NCBI GenBank assembly: GCA_020631315.1
Contig: JAHDHM010000171.1
Location: 1 to 7,421, forward strand
Direction: 5' to 3'
Origin: Acidimicrobiales bacterium
GTDB taxonomy: Bacteria; Actinomycetota; Acidimicrobiia; Acidimicrobiales; Poriferisodaliceae
Length of the DNA: 7,421 nucleotides
The position numbers were made by a program, and so were the translations under genes. This document shows, piece after piece, positions 1 through 7,224 of this stretch (positions within the stretch are counted from its first letter, which is position 1; every line of letters starts with the position of its first letter). Below the pieces are notes generated by a model that saw only the letters and a program-made list of their open reading frames with translations, ran no database searches and was not told where the DNA came from.

Positions 1-380
1 GACCGGTGATCGGCCCAAGCCGACAGGGTCCACTCGATGGCGGCGACGATCACGACGAGCAGGCCGAAGATGGCCAGCTGGGTGTTGATCACGAGACCGA
101 CGATCAGGAACGTGATGCCCGCAGCCGACATGATCGGCCAGTAGGTGGGCGTCGGCTCGTAGTGAGCCTCACGGTCCCGGTCGGCCGAGGCGCCGTCGCC
201 GGCTTCGAGCGACAGCCAGGTGAGGAAGCCGGTGGCGACACCCATGGTGCCGAGCACCACGGTGCCGAAGAAGGCGACGTCACCGTTGCCGTTGGCGGCG
301 GTGCCGATGCCGAAGACGGTCGCGGCGCCGATGAGCAGGAAGGTGAGACCTGCGAAGTACTTGGTGGCGGTTCCGAACAT
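1..380 (-). CDS. Cytochrome c oxidase subunit IV-like membrane protein (CtaF-type), C-terminus cut by window edge
   Basis: A partial reading frame of 126 codons starts at ATG 380-378 and runs off the left edge without a stop. It has four hydrophobic segments (about residues 7-28, 34-57, 81-98 and 100-120). The two halves are separated by a polar, acidic-basic linker (about 60-78) ending in a YEPTPTYWP motif. This two-plus-two layout, with a Trp-Pro entering the third helix, resembles the small actinobacterial oxidase subunit IV (CtaF). That protein is a non-catalytic helper subunit of the aa3 oxidase in the cytoplasmic membrane. The gene follows the subunit III-like gene by 10 bp and has a plausible ribosome site (GAGG, 8 bases before ATG), so it is probably translated from the same transcript. 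Primary sequence conservation in this family is low, so the call rests on layout and neighbours. Confidence 0.72.
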   Translation of the reverse strand, partial: MFGTATKYFAGLTFLLIGAATVFGIGTAANGNGDVAFFGTVVLGTMGVATGFLTWLSLEAGDGASADRDREAHYEPTPTYWPIMSAAGITFLIVGLVINTQLAIFGLLVVIVAAIEWTLSAWADHR

Positions 381-390
381 TGTCGCTACC

Positions 391-984
391 TCACTTCACC
401 ACGTAGATGGCGTACCAGGCGGCGCACCAGGCGACGAACACGAAATCCCAGAACCAGACGGCACCGTTCAACAGCGCAGCGCCCTCGTCACCGAGGTCAC
501 CACCAACGGTGCGCAGGCCCATGAGCATCAGATAGACGATCGAGATGATCGTCAGAGCGATGACGTACCCGGTGATGGTGAACACCAGGTTGTGCCATTC
601 GCTGGTGCCGATGGCGATGTCCATCTCGTTCATCGAGAAGATCACCATGTTCAGGAAGGCGACGATCAGCAGGATCGTCGAGCCCAGGCCGAGCAGAGTG
701 TGGCCCTGCTCGCGGCGCTTGGCGGCCCAGACACACCAGTGACCGATGATCGAGGCCATGAGCGCCGTGATGACGGTCATCACGAGCGGTGCGTTGGGCA
801 TGACGACGTCGTCGGGAACCCAGTTCTGACCGGGTGCGTCGACGGCATGACGGCGGCTCATGTAGAAGCCGATGAGGCCGGCCATGAGCGACATGCCGGC
901 GACGATCGTCAGGCCGGTCGCCACGAACTGGCTTCGAGGAGCGGTACGACCGCCCGGCGGGAGTGCGATGGTGGCGTCCGACAT
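391..984 (-). CDS. ctaE: Cytochrome c oxidase subunit III-like protein (CtaE family), divergent
   Basis: The protein is 197 aa with five hydrophobic segments (about 21-42, 64-88, 97-118, 130-157 and 172-195), the layout of short bacterial subunit III. FYMSRR (40-45), NW (54-55), the AAKRREQG loop and a C-terminal WFWDFVFVAW (177-186) line up with CtaE. CtaE normally binds lipid, stabilises subunit I and helps sustain proton uptake. Expected residues are missing: the Glu of the first-helix SELMFF motif, the Glu of the AYEY motif, the histidines of TGFHGLHV (here TGYVIALTI, 138-146), and the His and Asp of WHFVD (here D180 and F183). The start ATG shares its A with the stop of the upstream subunit I-like gene. 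It has a strong AGGAGG (1000-995), 10 bases upstream, inside that gene's end, implying translational coupling. The family call is secure; an ordinary role in an active oxidase is doubtful. Confidence 0.85.
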   Translation of the reverse strand: MSDATIALPPGGRTAPRSQFVATGLTIVAGMSLMAGLIGFYMSRRHAVDAPGQNWVPDDVVMPNAPLVMTVITALMASIIGHWCVWAAKRREQGHTLLGLGSTILLIVAFLNMVIFSMNEMDIAIGTSEWHNLVFTITGYVIALTIISIVYLMLMGLRTVGGDLGDEGAALLNGAVWFWDFVFVAWCAAWYAIYVVK

Positions 985-2657
985 CAGACGCTGACCTCCT
1001 CTGCGTCACGGGCGTCGAGCAGCGGGGTGCCCGAGGTCAGGGCGGGTAGACCCTCGTGGGTGGTGTCCCATTCGGCGGTGAAACCGCCCCAGGGATCGTC
1101 GTCGGCTTCGGCACCCTTGCCGAGCAGCAACGACACGATGACGTCGAGCGCGAGCAGCGCCACGCCGGCAGCGAAGATGATCACACCGACGGCGCCGATG
1201 GTGTTGAGCGCCGTGTTCGGGTCACTGATCGAGTCGTAGATCGAGTTGGTGGCCGGTCCACCGGGCTGACCGGTGAGCAGACCGGCGAGGGCCGGGCCGA
1301 GGCCGCCGATGAAGGCGCCGCCGAGCAGCGCCAACACGGTGAGGCGACTGAGGGCCGGGTTCATGTGGCGACCGAACACGATGGGAGCCCACCAGTTCAT
1401 GGCCGCAGCGATGCCGAGAGCGCCGGCGCCGACGGTGAGGAGGAACTGTGCGTCGTTCCACGTGGTCAGACGAAGCGCAGCCGCCGGGTCGAGGCCGAGC
1501 GTGTCGCGCCAGTCCCAGCCGACCGAGTCGAGCCAGTCGAGACCGGCACCGAGCCCACCGTGGACCGAACCGATGGCGAGCAGCACTGCCGCGCCGAGCG
1601 CAGCGAGGAAGGGCGCCGTCGTCGGCGGCACGACCTTGTTGATGCCGAGCGTGGCGAGGTGCAGGCCGATGACGACGAGGATGGCGAGCTTGGCGCCGGA
1701 GAACATGCCGACGTAGACGATGCCCTGCCATCCGTCGGCGATGGTGCCGCCCTCGACGCCGTTGAGCTGGGTCCAGGCGCCGAGCCCGAACATGGCGACG
1801 GCACCGATGGCTGCGGTGGAGATGGCCGGCAGCAGCACGCGGCGGCGGGCGGCGACCGGGAGGATCTCTGCCATCACGCCGATCACCGGCACGAGGAACA
1901 GGTAGAGCGTCGGTGCCCGGTACACCCACTCGATGTGGTCCCAGATGGCGGTGTTGCCGCCGAGGAAGTCGACGTCGAAGCGTGAGCTGTAGCGGTGGTC
2001 GATGTAGAGGAACGACGCCATCGCGATCAGGACCGGCAGCGTCAGCAGGAGGCCGACGCCGGTGACGAAGGTGGCCCAGGTGAACGGGGACGCCTGATCG
2101 AGGTTGAGGCCCGGAGCCCGCATCGAGAAGATCGTGGTCACGACGACCACGACGCCGAGCAGCAGCGCTGCCACCGTCGTGCCGAGTGCGATGAGGTGCA
2201 GGTCGACGCCCTCGGCATCGCCACGGACGCCGCCGTACGGGCCGCCGTTGACGAGGTAGGCGCCGATGAGCACCAACGAGGCGAACTTCCAGGTGAAGAA
2301 CGACGCCAGTGCGGCCCTCGGGAACGCCACGGTCTTGGCACCGATCTGTGCCGGCACCACGTAGATCGCCAGACCGATGAAGAACGGCAGCAGCACCAGG
2401 AACACCGCAGCGTCACGGGTGAGCGCGAACGCCTGTGCCCAGCTGTCGGCGTCGAGCACGACGAAACCGTCGCTGCTCGTCAGGTCGAGCGACACGAGTG
2501 CGGACAGCACTGCCGTCAACACGAAGAACCCCAGCGCGCTGACCATGAACATGCGACCGATGCGACGATGGTCGTTGGTGTTCACAAGGCCGAGCAGGGA
2601 AGGGTCCTCCATCGGACGAGCAGCGCTCGACACAGGGACTTCGGAGGTTTCGGTCAT
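984..2657 (-). CDS. Cytochrome c oxidase subunit I-like protein lacking all heme and copper ligands
   Basis: This is a full-length 557-aa membrane protein with about 12 hydrophobic segments, the size and layout of CtaD. COX1 landmarks are clear: NDHRRIGRM (28-36), VPAQIGAKTVAFPR (101-114), IEWVYRAPTLY followed by a P..G...EILPV stretch (242-267), FGR (428-430) and the C-terminal DDPWGGFTAEW (520-530). The metal-binding residues are gone. The heme a site TxHG reads LTRDA (about 79-83). HPEVY reads APTLY (248-252; the Tyr stays, His and Glu are lost). The CuB His-His pair reads GAWTQL (about 293-298). HFH reads AQF (403-405), and the propionate-binding MPRR reads GQPGG (463-467). The frame is open throughout, so this is not a frameshift artefact. 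The start ATG has an upstream GAGTGAG. Inference: a structural or regulatory paralogue, not a catalytic oxidase. An annotation as plain CtaD would be misleading. Confidence 0.85.
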   Translation of the reverse strand: MTETSEVPVSSAARPMEDPSLLGLVNTNDHRRIGRMFMVSALGFFVLTAVLSALVSLDLTSSDGFVVLDADSWAQAFALTRDAAVFLVLLPFFIGLAIYVVPAQIGAKTVAFPRAALASFFTWKFASLVLIGAYLVNGGPYGGVRGDAEGVDLHLIALGTTVAALLLGVVVVVTTIFSMRAPGLNLDQASPFTWATFVTGVGLLLTLPVLIAMASFLYIDHRYSSRFDVDFLGGNTAIWDHIEWVYRAPTLYLFLVPVIGVMAEILPVAARRRVLLPAISTAAIGAVAMFGLGAWTQLNGVEGGTIADGWQGIVYVGMFSGAKLAILVVIGLHLATLGINKVVPPTTAPFLAALGAAVLLAIGSVHGGLGAGLDWLDSVGWDWRDTLGLDPAAALRLTTWNDAQFLLTVGAGALGIAAAMNWWAPIVFGRHMNPALSRLTVLALLGGAFIGGLGPALAGLLTGQPGGPATNSIYDSISDPNTALNTIGAVGVIIFAAGVALLALDVIVSLLLGKGAEADDDPWGGFTAEWDTTHEGLPALTSGTPLLDARDAEEVSV

Positions 2658-3782: not shown

Positions 3783-3956
3783 GGGCGGCACACCTCCAGC
3801 CCGAGACGGCTTCAATCGCGCGATCGTGACGAGCGACAGGCGTCTCCAGCCACCGTGGAGGAGCCGAGCAGGGGACGAGCCAGCGACGTCGACGAGACCG
3901 GAAGGGGCCTGTGCGAAAAGGGGCGGCGCTCGTTTTCGATCGCGTCGCCAGCCCAA

Positions 3957-3962
3957 TACCGT
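3957..3962 (+). promoter_or_regulatory. Putative -10 box for leaderless ctaA transcript
   Basis: TACCGT fits TANNNT and ends 8 bases before the GTG at 3971, the same spacing as the TATCGT-to-GTG arrangement of ctaB on the other strand. No clear -35 is present. There is no Shine-Dalgarno before the 3971 GTG, which agrees with a leaderless start. This remains a motif-level suggestion. Confidence 0.3.
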
Positions 3963-3970
3963 CTGTGGTC

Positions 3971-4933
3971 GTGGAACAGCCCAGTGCGCCGGCCGCCCCG
4001 GCCCGATCCTCACGCTGGAGAGTCAGCGACGCCCGGTACGCCCGGCTCACCTCCTTCACCGTGGGCTGGCTGGTCGTCATCGTCGTGTGCGGAGCTGCGG
4101 TCCGCCTCACCGGATCCGGACTCGGGTGTTCGGACTGGCCCAACTGCTCCGAGCAGTCGCTGATCCCCGAGTCCGACTTCCACAGCCTCATCGAATTCGG
4201 CAACCGGCTGATCACCATCCCGGTCGGCTTCGCCGCACTGGCAGCCCTCGTCGGCGCCTACCGCCTCGCCACGCCGAATCGTCGACTCATCCCGTGGGCG
4301 TGGGCGTTGGTCGTCGGCGTGTTCGCGAACGCGATCTGGGGTCGGTTCACCGTGGTGTGGGAACTGCGGCCCGAGGTGGTGATGGTCCACTTCCTGCTCG
4401 CGATGGCCACCCTGTGGTTCGCGGTGGCGCTCCATCACATCGCCCACGGCACTTCCGTCGCCGCGGCGCCCTCGAGGCGACTTCGTCTCCTCGCCCGCGC
4501 CTCGGTGCTCGTGACCACCGGCGTCGTCTTCCTCGGCACGGTGGTGACTGCCGCCGGCCCACATGCCGGCGACGAGCACGTCGAGCGGCTGGCCGTCGAT
4601 CTGCCCGCAGCAGCGCGCAACCACGGCGGTCTCGTGTGGGTCCTGGTCTTCCTCGTGCTCGCGATGTTCGTCACGACCGAGAGCATCGAAGGTGACGCTG
4701 GGTTCCGTCCGATGGTCCGCACGTTCGCGGTGGTCGTCGCGTCCCAGGGGGTCATCGGGTACGTCCAGTACTTCGCCGACATCCCGGAGCTGCTCGTCGC
4801 CTTGCACATCGCCGGCGCCTGCGCAGTGTGGATCCTGGCGATCCGTCTCGGGTTCACGATCGGCTGGCCACGCCACAGTCACGCCGATGTCGACGTCGCA
4901 CCGGACCTCGAACCGGCGGGAGCACATCGGTGA
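3971..4933 (+). CDS. ctaA: Heme A synthase (COX15/CtaA family)
   Basis: CtaA oxidises the C8 methyl of heme O to a formyl group, making heme A for aa3-type oxidases, in the cytoplasmic membrane. The 320-aa protein has about eight hydrophobic helices in two similar halves. Visible motifs are [16 protein letters not shown] (44-59) with the extracellular Cys53/Cys59 pair, EFGNR (75-79) with the likely catalytic Glu75, VVMVHF (His140), [14 protein letters not shown] (189-202), NHGG (His218) and LHIAG (His279). The usual first-site EFxHR histidine is Asn78; I recall EFGNR in mycobacterial CtaA, so this is probably lineage-typical. The frame opens earlier at GTG 3911, behind a purine run. The extra 20 codons include AT-rich codons (AAA, GTT, ATA) unlike the gene body, so I chose GTG 3971. 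It is divergent from ctaB and overlaps clpS by 4 bp (GTGA). Confidence 0.93.
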
Positions 4934-5220
4934 GCACCTCCCCCACTCCGACACGCCACGACGAAGGTGACACGCTCACCGAAGAGGACGTCCCCTGGGT
5001 CGTGCTCGTGTGGAACGACCCCATCAACCTGATGAGCTACGTCGTGATGGTGCTGCAGAAGCTGTTCGGCTACAGCCACGAGAAGGCGACCGAGCTCATG
5101 CTCGACGTGCACCACAAGGGCCGCGCCGTCGTGTCGAACGGCACGAAGGCCGAGGCCGAACGGGACGTGTTCCGTCTCCACGAGTTCGGGCTGTGGGCGA
5201 CGATGCAGAAGGACGAGTAG
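4930..5220 (+). CDS. clpS: ATP-dependent Clp protease adaptor ClpS
   Basis: ClpS is a small cytosolic adaptor that binds proteins bearing bulky hydrophobic N-terminal residues and hands them to the Clp unfoldase (ClpC in actinobacteria). The 96-aa product has a flexible polar N-terminal tail (1-20), then the ClpS core. [15 protein letters not shown] (24-38) carries the Asn29-Asp30 pair that binds the substrate's amino group. [20 protein letters not shown] (42-61) ends in His61, equivalent to E. coli His66, and is followed by HKGRAVV (62-68). GTG 4930 overlaps the ctaA stop as GTGA and is preceded by GGGAG, 7 bases away, so translation is probably coupled to ctaA. An earlier in-frame start would lie deep inside ctaA and is rejected. 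The next gene, DUF2017, is its usual actinobacterial partner. Confidence 0.95.
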
Positions 5221-5222
5221 GC

Positions 5223-5729
5223 ATGGCGTTCTCCTTCCGCCGCCGGATCCGGCGCTCCAACGGTCGCGTGATCGTGAAGATCGACGAGCAGGAGCGCGAG
5301 CTGCTCGAGCATCTGCTGCCCCAGCTGCGTGACGTGCTGGTGGGCGTGGCTCCCTCGGGCGAGCTCGACCCGGCGATCGTCCGGCTCTTCCCGACCGCAC
5401 ATCCCGAGGACGTCGAGGCGGAGGCGGCCTACCAGGAGACCCAGCGTGACCGACTCCTGGCGGCTCGCCTGGACCGACTCGACACGGTCGAGGCGACCCT
5501 CCAGGAGGAGTCGCTCGACGACGAGCAGCACGCGGCATGGATCGCGACGATCAACGACATGCGGCTCGTGCTCGGCACCCGACTCGACGTGGGTGAGGAA
5601 GACGAACCGCTCGACTTCGAGAGCGACGACCCGGCGACCGCAGCTCTGGCGACGTACCACTACCTCGGCCATCTGCTCGGGGAGCTGGTCGAAGCCGTCG
5701 ACGCCGGCCCGTTCGACCCGGACCGCTGA
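5223..5729 (+). CDS. DUF2017 family protein, ClpS-linked
   Basis: This 168-aa soluble, acidic, helix-rich protein has no signal peptide or membrane segment. The N-terminus is basic (MAFSFRRRIRR, 1-11), followed by a KIDEQERELLEHLLPQL helix. The middle is rich in Glu, Arg and Leu, with AYQETQRDRL and INDMRLVLGTRL segments typical of the DUF2017 family. The C-terminus has an YHYLGHLLGELVEAV helix. The biochemical function is not known. In actinobacteria this family habitually sits directly after clpS, and the 2-bp gap here implies co-translation. Hence a role with ClpS or Clp proteolysis is plausible but is inferred from context. ATG 5223 was preferred because the frame upstream (to 5010) runs through clpS. 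The gene ends 24 bp from the convergent degV-like gene. Confidence 0.87.
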   Translation: MAFSFRRRIRRSNGRVIVKIDEQERELLEHLLPQLRDVLVGVAPSGELDPAIVRLFPTAHPEDVEAEAAYQETQRDRLLAARLDRLDTVEATLQEESLDDEQHAAWIATINDMRLVLGTRLDVGEEDEPLDFESDDPATAALATYHYLGHLLGELVEAVDAGPFDPDR

Positions 5730-5742
5730 GCCGAGACCGGAT

Positions 5743-5754
5743 ACGTCGCGACGT
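5743..5754. repeat. 12-bp perfect palindrome in convergent gene junction
   Basis: ACGTCGCGACGT is perfectly self-complementary and fills most of the 24-bp gap between the DUF2017 stop and the degV-like stop, touching the latter. It has no loop and no T-run, so it is not a convincing intrinsic terminator. In GC-rich DNA such a palindrome can arise by chance. Confidence 0.3.
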
Positions 5755-6590
5755 CAGCCCAGGCGCAGCCAGGCCGCGCCGGCCACACCGGGACCGGAGA
5801 ACGCTCCCACCGACGGCCCGCAGCGGTACGAGATGACGTCGACGACGTGGTCCATCGCGCGCAGGCGCTCGAGCATCCGGTCGTGGATCGCCATCACCCC
5901 ACGGTCGCCCACCCCGACGCCCACGCGTAGCGGGCCCGGCTCTCGGGCGATCGTGTCGACCATCGCTGCGACCGCGGCGTCGAGATCTCGCACCGACGCG
6001 ACGACATCGAGGTCGGTCCCTGCGAGCCGAACGACCGGTACCTCGTCGGCCGAGACGTCGGCAGCGCCGTGCACGTCGAGACGACCGCCGCCGTCCGCGA
6101 GCACGAGGCCACTCACGACGAAGACGTTGCCCAGGCGGGTCGCCGCCGAACGTGCCGCATCCGCGACGGCATCGCCGTCAGCGCCGCCGTCGCGCGCCGC
6201 CACAGCGGCGGTCACACACAGTCCGATGGAGAACGACGTCTGCCCGGTGTCGACGATGTCGACGGGCACGTCGACCAGCTCCGCCGCGAGGCGTGCGCTG
6301 TTCGTCGTCCCGGACAGTGCACTGCCGACGTGGATCGACACGATGGCGTCGGCACCGTCGGACGCAAGTCGTCGGTAGGCCGCAGCGAAGTCGCCGGGCG
6401 ACGGCTGACTCGTGGAGACCTCAGCGCCCTCGGCGAGACGTGCATAGAAGTCGTCGACGTCGATCTCGCGCTCGGGCCGACTGTCCCCGTCGATGACGAT
6501 CGGAATGTCGACCACCGTGACGTCCAGGCGCTCCACGAGGGCTTCGGGGAGCTGGGCGTTGGAGTCGGTGACGATGGCGATCTGTGGCAC
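5754..6590 (-). CDS. DegV family protein (FakB-like fatty acid-binding protein)
   Basis: DegV proteins bind a fatty acid in a buried tunnel; the FakB members present it to the kinase FakA, giving acyl-phosphate. The 278-aa product matches the family: IAIVTDSNAQLP (4-15), VSTSQPSPGDF (58-68), SALSGTTNSA (90-99), DTGQTSFSIG (114-123) and a C-terminal SGPGVAG (265-271). Differences are a short, altered middle (LADGGGRLDV, 164-173, where RRGGRIG-type sequence is usual) and Phe264 in place of the family's His before GPG. GTG 6590 gives VPQIAIVTDS, the normal N-terminus. A TTG at 6647 would extend 19 residues into plsY and is less likely. The gene begins 7 bp after the plsY stop, so the two are almost certainly co-transcribed. 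Substrate and partner kinase are unknown; no fakA is in this window. Confidence 0.88.
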   Translation of the reverse strand: MPQIAIVTDSNAQLPEALVERLDVTVVDIPIVIDGDSRPEREIDVDDFYARLAEGAEVSTSQPSPGDFAAAYRRLASDGADAIVSIHVGSALSGTTNSARLAAELVDVPVDIVDTGQTSFSIGLCVTAAVAARDGGADGDAVADAARSAATRLGNVFVVSGLVLADGGGRLDVHGAADVSADEVPVVRLAGTDLDVVASVRDLDAAVAAMVDTIAREPGPLRVGVGVGDRGVMAIHDRMLERLRAMDHVVDVISYRCGPSVGAFSGPGVAGAAWLRLG

Positions 6591-6597
6591 GGGACCG

Positions 6598-7224
6598 TCA
6601 ACCCCGTGCAGCTGCAGCGCGTTCCGCTGCGACGAAACGTTCGGCAATCACCACACTCGACACTGCCGCCGCGATCGGAAGCGCCGCGGTCGGCTCGGGG
6701 CCCCATCCGTTTCGCCAGCCACGACGCCACCACAGAGCCGACGCACCGACCCACACCGCCGAAGCGGTGGCCGTGGCGGCGAACGCACGCTGCTTCCAGA
6801 CCGGCATCGCCGCCGTTGCCACAGCGACCGCAGCATCGATCGGGAAGTACACCGGGAACGACACCAGAACCTGACCGACGCTGGCAGCCACACCCTTCCC
6901 GCCCTTGCCCGGGTGAGTGACCGGATGGCAGTGCCCGATGACCGCGCCGGTCGAGCCGAGGTGGATGCCCAGGTCGCCGGCGACGAGACCGCCGACGCGA
7001 CCGGCCACGACGGCCTTGGCGATGTCGCCGGCCATCACCTCGAGTCCGGCGGTCGCGCCGAGCTGACCCGCGGCGTTCGCGGCACCCGGATTGCCGGTTC
7101 CGGACTCACGCAGGTCGACACCGTGGCGCCGCGCCACGAGATCCGCGGTCGGGAACAGGCCGCAGACATAGCCCACGACCGCAGCAGAGAGGAGACGCAG
7201 AACCCCGGTCGCAGACACGATCAC
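6598..7224 (-). CDS. plsY: Acyl-phosphate:glycerol-3-phosphate acyltransferase, divergent
   Basis: PlsY transfers an acyl chain from acyl-phosphate to glycerol-3-phosphate, making lysophosphatidic acid, the first step of phospholipid synthesis at the membrane. The 208-aa protein is hydrophobic with about five to seven membrane segments. Motif 1 is present as LFPTADLVARRHG (23-35) plus SGTGNPGAAN (41-50), against the common SGNxGATN. GDIAKA (66-71) keeps the Asp-x-x-Lys feature, and motif 2 is intact as GHCHPVTHPGKGGKGVA (97-113), the phosphate-binding glycine loop. The usual C-terminal HRxNIxRL motif 3 is not evident; the end reads AERFVAAER (194-202). GTG 7224 is taken as the start, with another GTG two codons in; no ribosome site is visible. 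It leads the operon with the degV-like gene and is divergent from tRNA-Glu. Confidence 0.88.
   Translation of the reverse strand: MIVSATGVLRLLSAAVVGYVCGLFPTADLVARRHGVDLRESGTGNPGAANAAGQLGATAGLEVMAGDIAKAVVAGRVGGLVAGDLGIHLGSTGAVIGHCHPVTHPGKGGKGVAASVGQVLVSFPVYFPIDAAVAVATAAMPVWKQRAFAATATASAVWVGASALWWRRGWRNGWGPEPTAALPIAAAVSSVVIAERFVAAERAAAARG

Follow-up and report, generated by a model that had tools for sequence, protein, structure and literature searches.

The window, i.e., the whole 7,421-nucleotide stretch of DNA analyzed here, contains the following genes of interest, given in forward-strand coordinates:

984..2657, minus strand: I', a ligand-free homologue of cytochrome oxidase subunit I, 557 aa (PF00115, 136 bits)
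391..984, minus strand: III', a divergent homologue of subunit III, 197 aa (PF00510, 27.1 bits against a cut-off of 23.8)
3..380, minus strand: IV' (sIV), a membrane protein, N-terminal 126 aa of a gene truncated by the window end, assigned by position and by likeness to IV' of the related locus L001
2838..3761, minus strand: ctaB, heme O synthase (NCBIfam heme o synthase model, 397 bits; UbiA, 219 bits)
3911..4933, plus strand: ctaA, heme A synthase homologue (PF02628, 83.5 bits)

The coordinates of ctaB and ctaA are provisional at their start codons. On the minus strand ctaB is followed by I', III' and the beginning of IV', and the stop codon of I' overlaps the ATG of III' in the sequence TGATG. 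The ctaA gene is divergent from ctaB, a placement that recurs in many relatives. The best named relative of the window is L001, whose I' is 67% identical, and the nearest named sources are metagenome-assembled genomes (MAGs) labeled as Actinomycetota and Acidimicrobiales. As the window stops before ctaC and ctaD, the active oxidase partner is visible only in relatives such as L001.

The CtaA homologue of the window carries an EFGNR motif at a site where the usual CtaA motif is ExxHR. The accessible part of a study on the evolution of COX1 and CtaA (PMC8239418) lists an H60N substitution for the CtaA of Acidimicrobiaceae and mentions that family for this substitution alone. The other neighbors in the window (4957-5220, 5010-5726, 5754-6647 and 6598-7224) are ordinary by Pfam, their identities being ClpS, DUF2017, a DegV-family protein and a PlsY-like acyltransferase.

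A subunit I fold without its cofactor ligands

Few respiratory proteins have been studied as well, or are as constrained, as subunit I of cytochrome oxidase. Inspection of an alignment of the window I' with 88 relatives, including canonical subunits I, shows T and L in the two low-spin heme histidine columns, Q in the column of the proximal histidine of the high-spin heme, and A, Q and L in the three CuB histidine columns. Further, the D, E and K positions of the proton channels (D- and K-channels) are T, T and V, the arginine pair of subunit I is likewise substituted, and the histidine columns common to the oxidases and NorB hold other residues. These columns, together with a PF00115 score nearly four times the cut-off, confirm the claim of a preliminary description of this DNA that a COX1 scaffold is present without any of the six heme and CuB histidines. 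The structural comparison proposed there also bears out the scaffold: a confident AlphaFold2 model (pLDDT 88.8, pTM 0.93) resembles oxidase subunit I structures across most of the length of I'. With the NCBIfam CtaD_CoxA equivalog (TIGR02891), I' scores 191.7 bits and does not reach the cut-off of 670.75. I' is a subunit I homologue by fold which lacks the defining features of a catalytic subunit I; the scaffold is retained and the known chemistry is gone. It differs from the A-family CtaD/subunit I (PF00115, TIGR02891) in having neither the heme and CuB ligands nor the D- and K-channel residues, and in relatives a true ctaD adjoins its gene.

Two protein searches combined with genome loci recovered at least 323 distinct members of the I' family, of which 322 have all six ligand columns filled. 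The second search contributed 120 listed matches out of 344, and the counts reflect the choice of two queries, taken from opposite ends of the family, rather than frequencies in nature. Among the matches listed, 144 of the 322 lack histidine at all six positions, 105 have retained the three heme histidines without any CuB histidine, 32 keep the low-spin pair alone, and eight carry a single histidine among the CuB columns, where two or more were seen in none. The residues that replace the ligands vary across the family. In the relatives of L148 among the matches listed (P0090-P0209), the first CuB histidine has become arginine in 120 of 120 and no CuB histidine remains in any, with the low-spin histidines present in 119 (the first, with one gap) and 120 (the second) and the high-spin histidine in 100.

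The mean identity of I' is 35% over 89 operons, as compared with 66% for the canonical subunit I. Across 68 I' rows, 39 columns reach a conservation of 85% or more, and most of these hold residues common to canonical subunit I. Additionally, Arg35 is newly conserved in 87% of the 68 rows, and the subgroup of the window (n=20) has Arg81 without exception, with Asp or Glu as the next residue, where the low-spin heme site used to be.

Three ligand-free members (P0015, P0016 and P0057) bear the public name "cbb3-type cytochrome c oxidase subunit I", which is a misannotation; where such proteins are named as oxidase subunits I, tallies of annotated genes give more oxidases than there are. A recoded stop codon was considered for members flagged as containing one internal TGA and was rejected: the six places fetched (L141-L146) are open frames of 530-563 aa, making recoding unnecessary.

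Operonic context and the III' and IV' proteins

Across named loci and further genome regions, the gene order in relatives is ctaA<->ctaB-I'-III'-IV'-ctaC-ctaD-ctaE-COX4_pro-ctaG, where the labels ctaC, ctaD, ctaE and COX4_pro derive from Pfam matches in L001, ctaG from a PF09678 match in L043, and the others from custom profiles. The seven core genes from ctaB to ctaE are all present in 89 of 145 I' loci, with some genomes contributing more than one locus; of the 56 incomplete loci, 54 end too soon and two (L076 and L209) lack ctaB despite room for it. A canonical subunit I lies downstream of I' in every one of the 106 loci with at least 5.5 kb beyond it, the remaining 39 of the 145 ending sooner. 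This partner has all six histidines (HHHHHH) in 97 of the 106, and the other nine show gaps or one X (an unread base) and no substitution. Similarly, among 58 genome regions around hits, IV' is found in 56 and I' of at least 460 aa in 52, with subunits II and I downstream in all 52; in L195, L196, L201 and L206 the contig ends within or before I', and L151 and L155 have a different canonical oxidase at the region. In L001 the subunit II of the operon combines a COX2 periplasmic domain with a cytochrome c domain, as in the caa3 oxidases. The active subunit I of that locus (7060-9084) has a C-terminal extension with a weak CtaF match (PF12270, 23.7 bits, below the cut-off). This extension is absent from I', and IV' may supply its counterpart.

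III', which lies downstream of I' in relatives too, scores 32 bits with the actinobacterial CtaE model against a cut-off of 190, and its L001 orthologue falls just under the PF00510 cut-off (22.8 against 23.8 bits). The 126-residue IV' fragment of the window has no Pfam match; in L001 the full protein is 257 aa long. IV' resembles CtaF weakly, with two of 22 members matching PF12270 at E <= 0.1 (best 0.0013). The two proteins are like the actinobacterial CtaE and CtaF in that III' passes PF00510 and IV' weakly resembles PF12270, and unlike them in that III' stays below the CtaE cut-off and IV' is extended by a second membrane half, to which some lineages add a cupredoxin domain. Copper-binding versions of this domain occur in four loci, all from I' branches that keep heme histidines and lack CuB. 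The altered C-terminal domain of other IV' proteins matches cupredoxins by profile comparison at E 0.001, with a probability of only 21%, and its fold match to cupredoxins is the better evidence. A strict coupling of copper-domain loss to heme loss was rejected, as L130, L133 and L138 keep the low-spin pair alongside an IV' without the copper motif, L133 even keeping all three heme histidines. The IV' of L045 matches a loose form of the copper motif, with a spacing taken as chance.

Phylogeny, ligand loss and selection

Trees were built without the six ligand columns. A quick tree of 103 rows places all I' proteins on one side (SH-aLRT 92) and 79 I' rows on a single branch (SH-aLRT 100), and a more careful tree of 56 rows separates I' from the canonical subunits I with support of 100/94. 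From the canonical side of the latter tree, L058 and P0084 branch first, followed by L149 (HYSEQH), L148 (HRAGHH) and a group with the remaining 36 rows (100/100), some of which still have the low-spin pair. The heme histidines are thus kept in the branches nearest the canonical proteins; in other branches the high-spin heme, the low-spin heme and the copper motif have been lost, and the window protein has no ligand histidine at all. At least six changes of the low-spin pair are required on the 103-row tree, and the pair was, therefore, probably lost several times. Judged from the distribution of these residues, the copper and heme sites seem to have been lost step by step in the I' lineage.

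A recent duplication of ctaD was considered as the origin of I'. A tree uniting the 79 I' rows with eight ctaD sequences of the class is rejected (p-AU 0.004), which, given the long branches and a group named post hoc, is a lead rather than proof.

The early-branching protein of L058 (5228-6898; the same gene is found in L085), from a MAG labeled as Solirubrobacterales, is a second subunit I of 556 aa (HQSRQH) that keeps the low-spin heme pair only and adjoins a canonical subunit I in a different gene order. It groups with P0084, outside the main I' group. P0084 (HQYHHH) has histidines at the heme sites and in one CuB column, with QSLAY in place of HPEVY, and represents a further unusual heme-copper relative.

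The median dN/dS of I' is 0.085 (maximum 0.21), as compared with 0.081 for the neighboring canonical subunit I, over 109 locus pairs with dS below 2 in both genes that are non-independent on account of shared loci. I' is under purifying selection of much the same strength as the active subunit; over longer times I' evolves faster than the canonical protein. The drop in conservation from canonical subunit I to I' is largest in TM6 (0.68 to 0.34), TM10 (0.64 to 0.32) and TM11 (0.58 to 0.29), and is smallest in TM3, TM4, TM5 and the C-terminal DPW..EW segment. In the oxidases, subunit III packs on helices in this first half of subunit I, and the surface for III' therefore seems to have been kept as the active-site helices drifted. 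The distances of I' correlate with those of III' (r = 0.88), IV' (0.86), subunit II (0.86), canonical subunit III (0.83) and canonical subunit I (0.76), or 0.79, 0.76, 0.74, 0.70 and 0.58 in the same order once the ctaB distance is taken out, values to be read with the caveat that co-inherited genes are expected to correlate highly and that subunit II tracks I' as well as IV' does.

The preliminary description had viewed I' as a non-redox "pseudo-COX1" that selection appears to preserve, possibly as a partner of the true oxidase, and had suggested looking for a separate, selected clade coexisting with a canonical subunit I. That core inference is supported by the clade, the dN/dS values and the operon; beyond the reach of the description were the I'-III'-IV' module, the graded loss of ligands and the decayed copper domain of the neighboring IV'. 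For its further suggestions of an ion-related or quinone-site membrane protein, the one feature that might count in favor is the newly fixed Arg-Asp/Glu pair in the subgroup of the window.

Possible roles and distribution of the module

On balance, we lean towards I'-III'-IV' being a cofactor-free structural module bound to the caa3 oxidase or to its supercomplex with cytochrome bcc. I', III' and IV' would assemble as one membrane module, made together with the caa3 oxidase of the same operon (CtaC/D/E) and most likely binding it. The module could make up the inactive half of an asymmetric dimer of oxidases, or it could serve as a platform for docking to the cytochrome bcc complex; in both cases I' would perform no chemistry of its own. 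The mutual binding of the three proteins, their binding to the oxidase and their structural role are what we infer from the features described above. As per the accessible part of the account of the Mycobacterium smegmatis supercomplex (PMC8361435), the main bcc-aa3 contacts are those of CtaE and CtaF with QcrB. These contact subunits are the ones which III', and perhaps IV', resemble, in keeping with a structural module. In the mycobacterial and corynebacterial bcc-aa3 supercomplexes the oxidase likewise docks to complex III via CtaE and CtaF, and the same part of that account makes no mention of a ligand-free copy of subunit I (PMC8361435). However, the newly fixed Arg35 and Arg81-Asp/Glu would not be required of a purely passive scaffold, and slightly lower the odds of a structural module while raising those of a new task.

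With regard to its history, a more tentative proposal, which we consider possible but would not rely upon, is that the I' lineage in this class passed through a CuB-less, heme-binding state with its own cupredoxin partner, in which I' had histidines at every heme position and an invariant Arg in place of one CuB histidine. High-spin heme, low-spin heme and copper would then have been stripped away, leaving bare protein kept as the inert half of an asymmetric caa3 oxidase or as its docking module. If so, the heme-keeping I' forms would represent a new kind of protein in the heme-copper superfamily, with a chemistry that operates without CuB.

The main rival to the structural module, which we consider unlikely, is an assembly factor: a transient I'/III'/IV' scaffold that holds CtaD, CtaE or the heme derived from CtaB/CtaA and is absent from the finished enzyme. 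The position of the I' gene right after ctaB, the presence of ctaA and ctaG in the same cluster in many relatives and the heme-binding histidines retained by some relatives are in line with such a role, but the window I', having no heme ligand, could not carry heme in any known way, and an entire I-III-IV set would be bulky for a transient factor. Less probable again is that the module simply shares the operon and works on its own in the membrane at some new task, such as the passage of ions, quinones or gas, or sensing. The channel and active-site residues have been free to change, and the newly fixed Arg-Asp/Glu pair in the subgroup of the window, along with the wider conservation of Arg35, could reflect such a task; against this, the oxidase operon has kept I', III' and IV' together despite the low mean identity of I' (35%), and most of its 39 conserved columns are residues of canonical subunit I too. 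It is very improbable that the window-type I' is redox active with heme or copper bound via unusual ligands: 105 of the 322 relatives among the matches listed do keep three heme histidines without a CuB histidine, but 144 have no histidine in any ligand column, the replacements vary, and no substitute ligand was noticed. Finally, although every catalytic residue is gone, the idea that I' is a pseudogene in decay or an artefact of assembly can practically be dismissed given the dN/dS of about 0.09, which is strong counter-evidence, the open frames of at least 460 aa in 145 loci (selected by hits, with broken copies left out) and the identical gene order across many independent genomes.

The structural module would have parallels, in that dead enzyme paralogues serve as structural parts of respiratory complexes, as seen in the core proteins of complex III and the gamma carbonic anhydrases of plant complex I. 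In those cases too an enzyme relative is kept for its structure, whereas here the dead copy is that of the catalytic core itself and living intermediates survive. Structural dead enzymes are already known, and a dead oxidase core with surviving intermediates is a new form of this. A selected, cofactor-free family with such intermediates can reveal what the bare scaffold is good for, and bears on the order in which metal sites are lost, on whether respiratory supercomplexes build with inert versions of their own enzymes, and on the annotation of oxidase genes. No description of such a protein was found by title or abstract in the open-access papers searched, and a word search of PMC5962788 gave no mention of cytochrome, oxidase, ctaD or heme.

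Full-length IV', which serves here as a marker for the module, is found in 96 of 395 genomes sampled from the class of MedAcidi-G3 (G001, the genome of locus L016), taken as Acidimicrobiia. These 96 score at least 161 bits with the IV' profile, and the next reach at most 64 bits, along only a portion of the model. Counting by a score threshold on the I' profile (A2) was rejected: a canonical subunit I of 560 residues (G109, L155) reaches 433 bits with it, and the IV' profile was hence used instead. No full-length IV' was seen in the other 299 of the 395 genomes, some of them incomplete, and the module is thus dispensable at the class level. In a phylum-wide draw of 396 genomes, 46 match the I' profile at E <= 1e-110; inspection of 30 of these, one locus each, found 17 I' and 13 canonical proteins, with all 17 I' in genomes of the class draw and 12 of the 13 canonical ones from outside it; I' may yet be spread more widely than these 30 loci show. 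Cytochrome b is present in 36 of 36 module-bearing genomes tested, a comparison restricted to such genomes and hence not specific.

Operons of this sort can also encode another, distinct oxidase-like fusion, and it cannot, therefore, be claimed that other genomes are without any such protein. In L217 a 709-aa protein encoded before ctaC (6590-8719) joins a PF00115 part (96 bits, residues 38-431), whose ligand columns cannot be aligned with the A family, to an IV'-like membrane part and a cupredoxin. Its relatives on plasmids are named cbb3-type subunit I, and it may itself be an inactive oxidase core, one of a different type. Regions without I' in L215, L216, L218 and L219 encode, downstream of ctaG, a protein of 243-286 aa that matches the membrane half of IV' and has a copper-like C..GH...GM motif at its C-terminus, the L216 version scoring 23.4 bits with PF00127.
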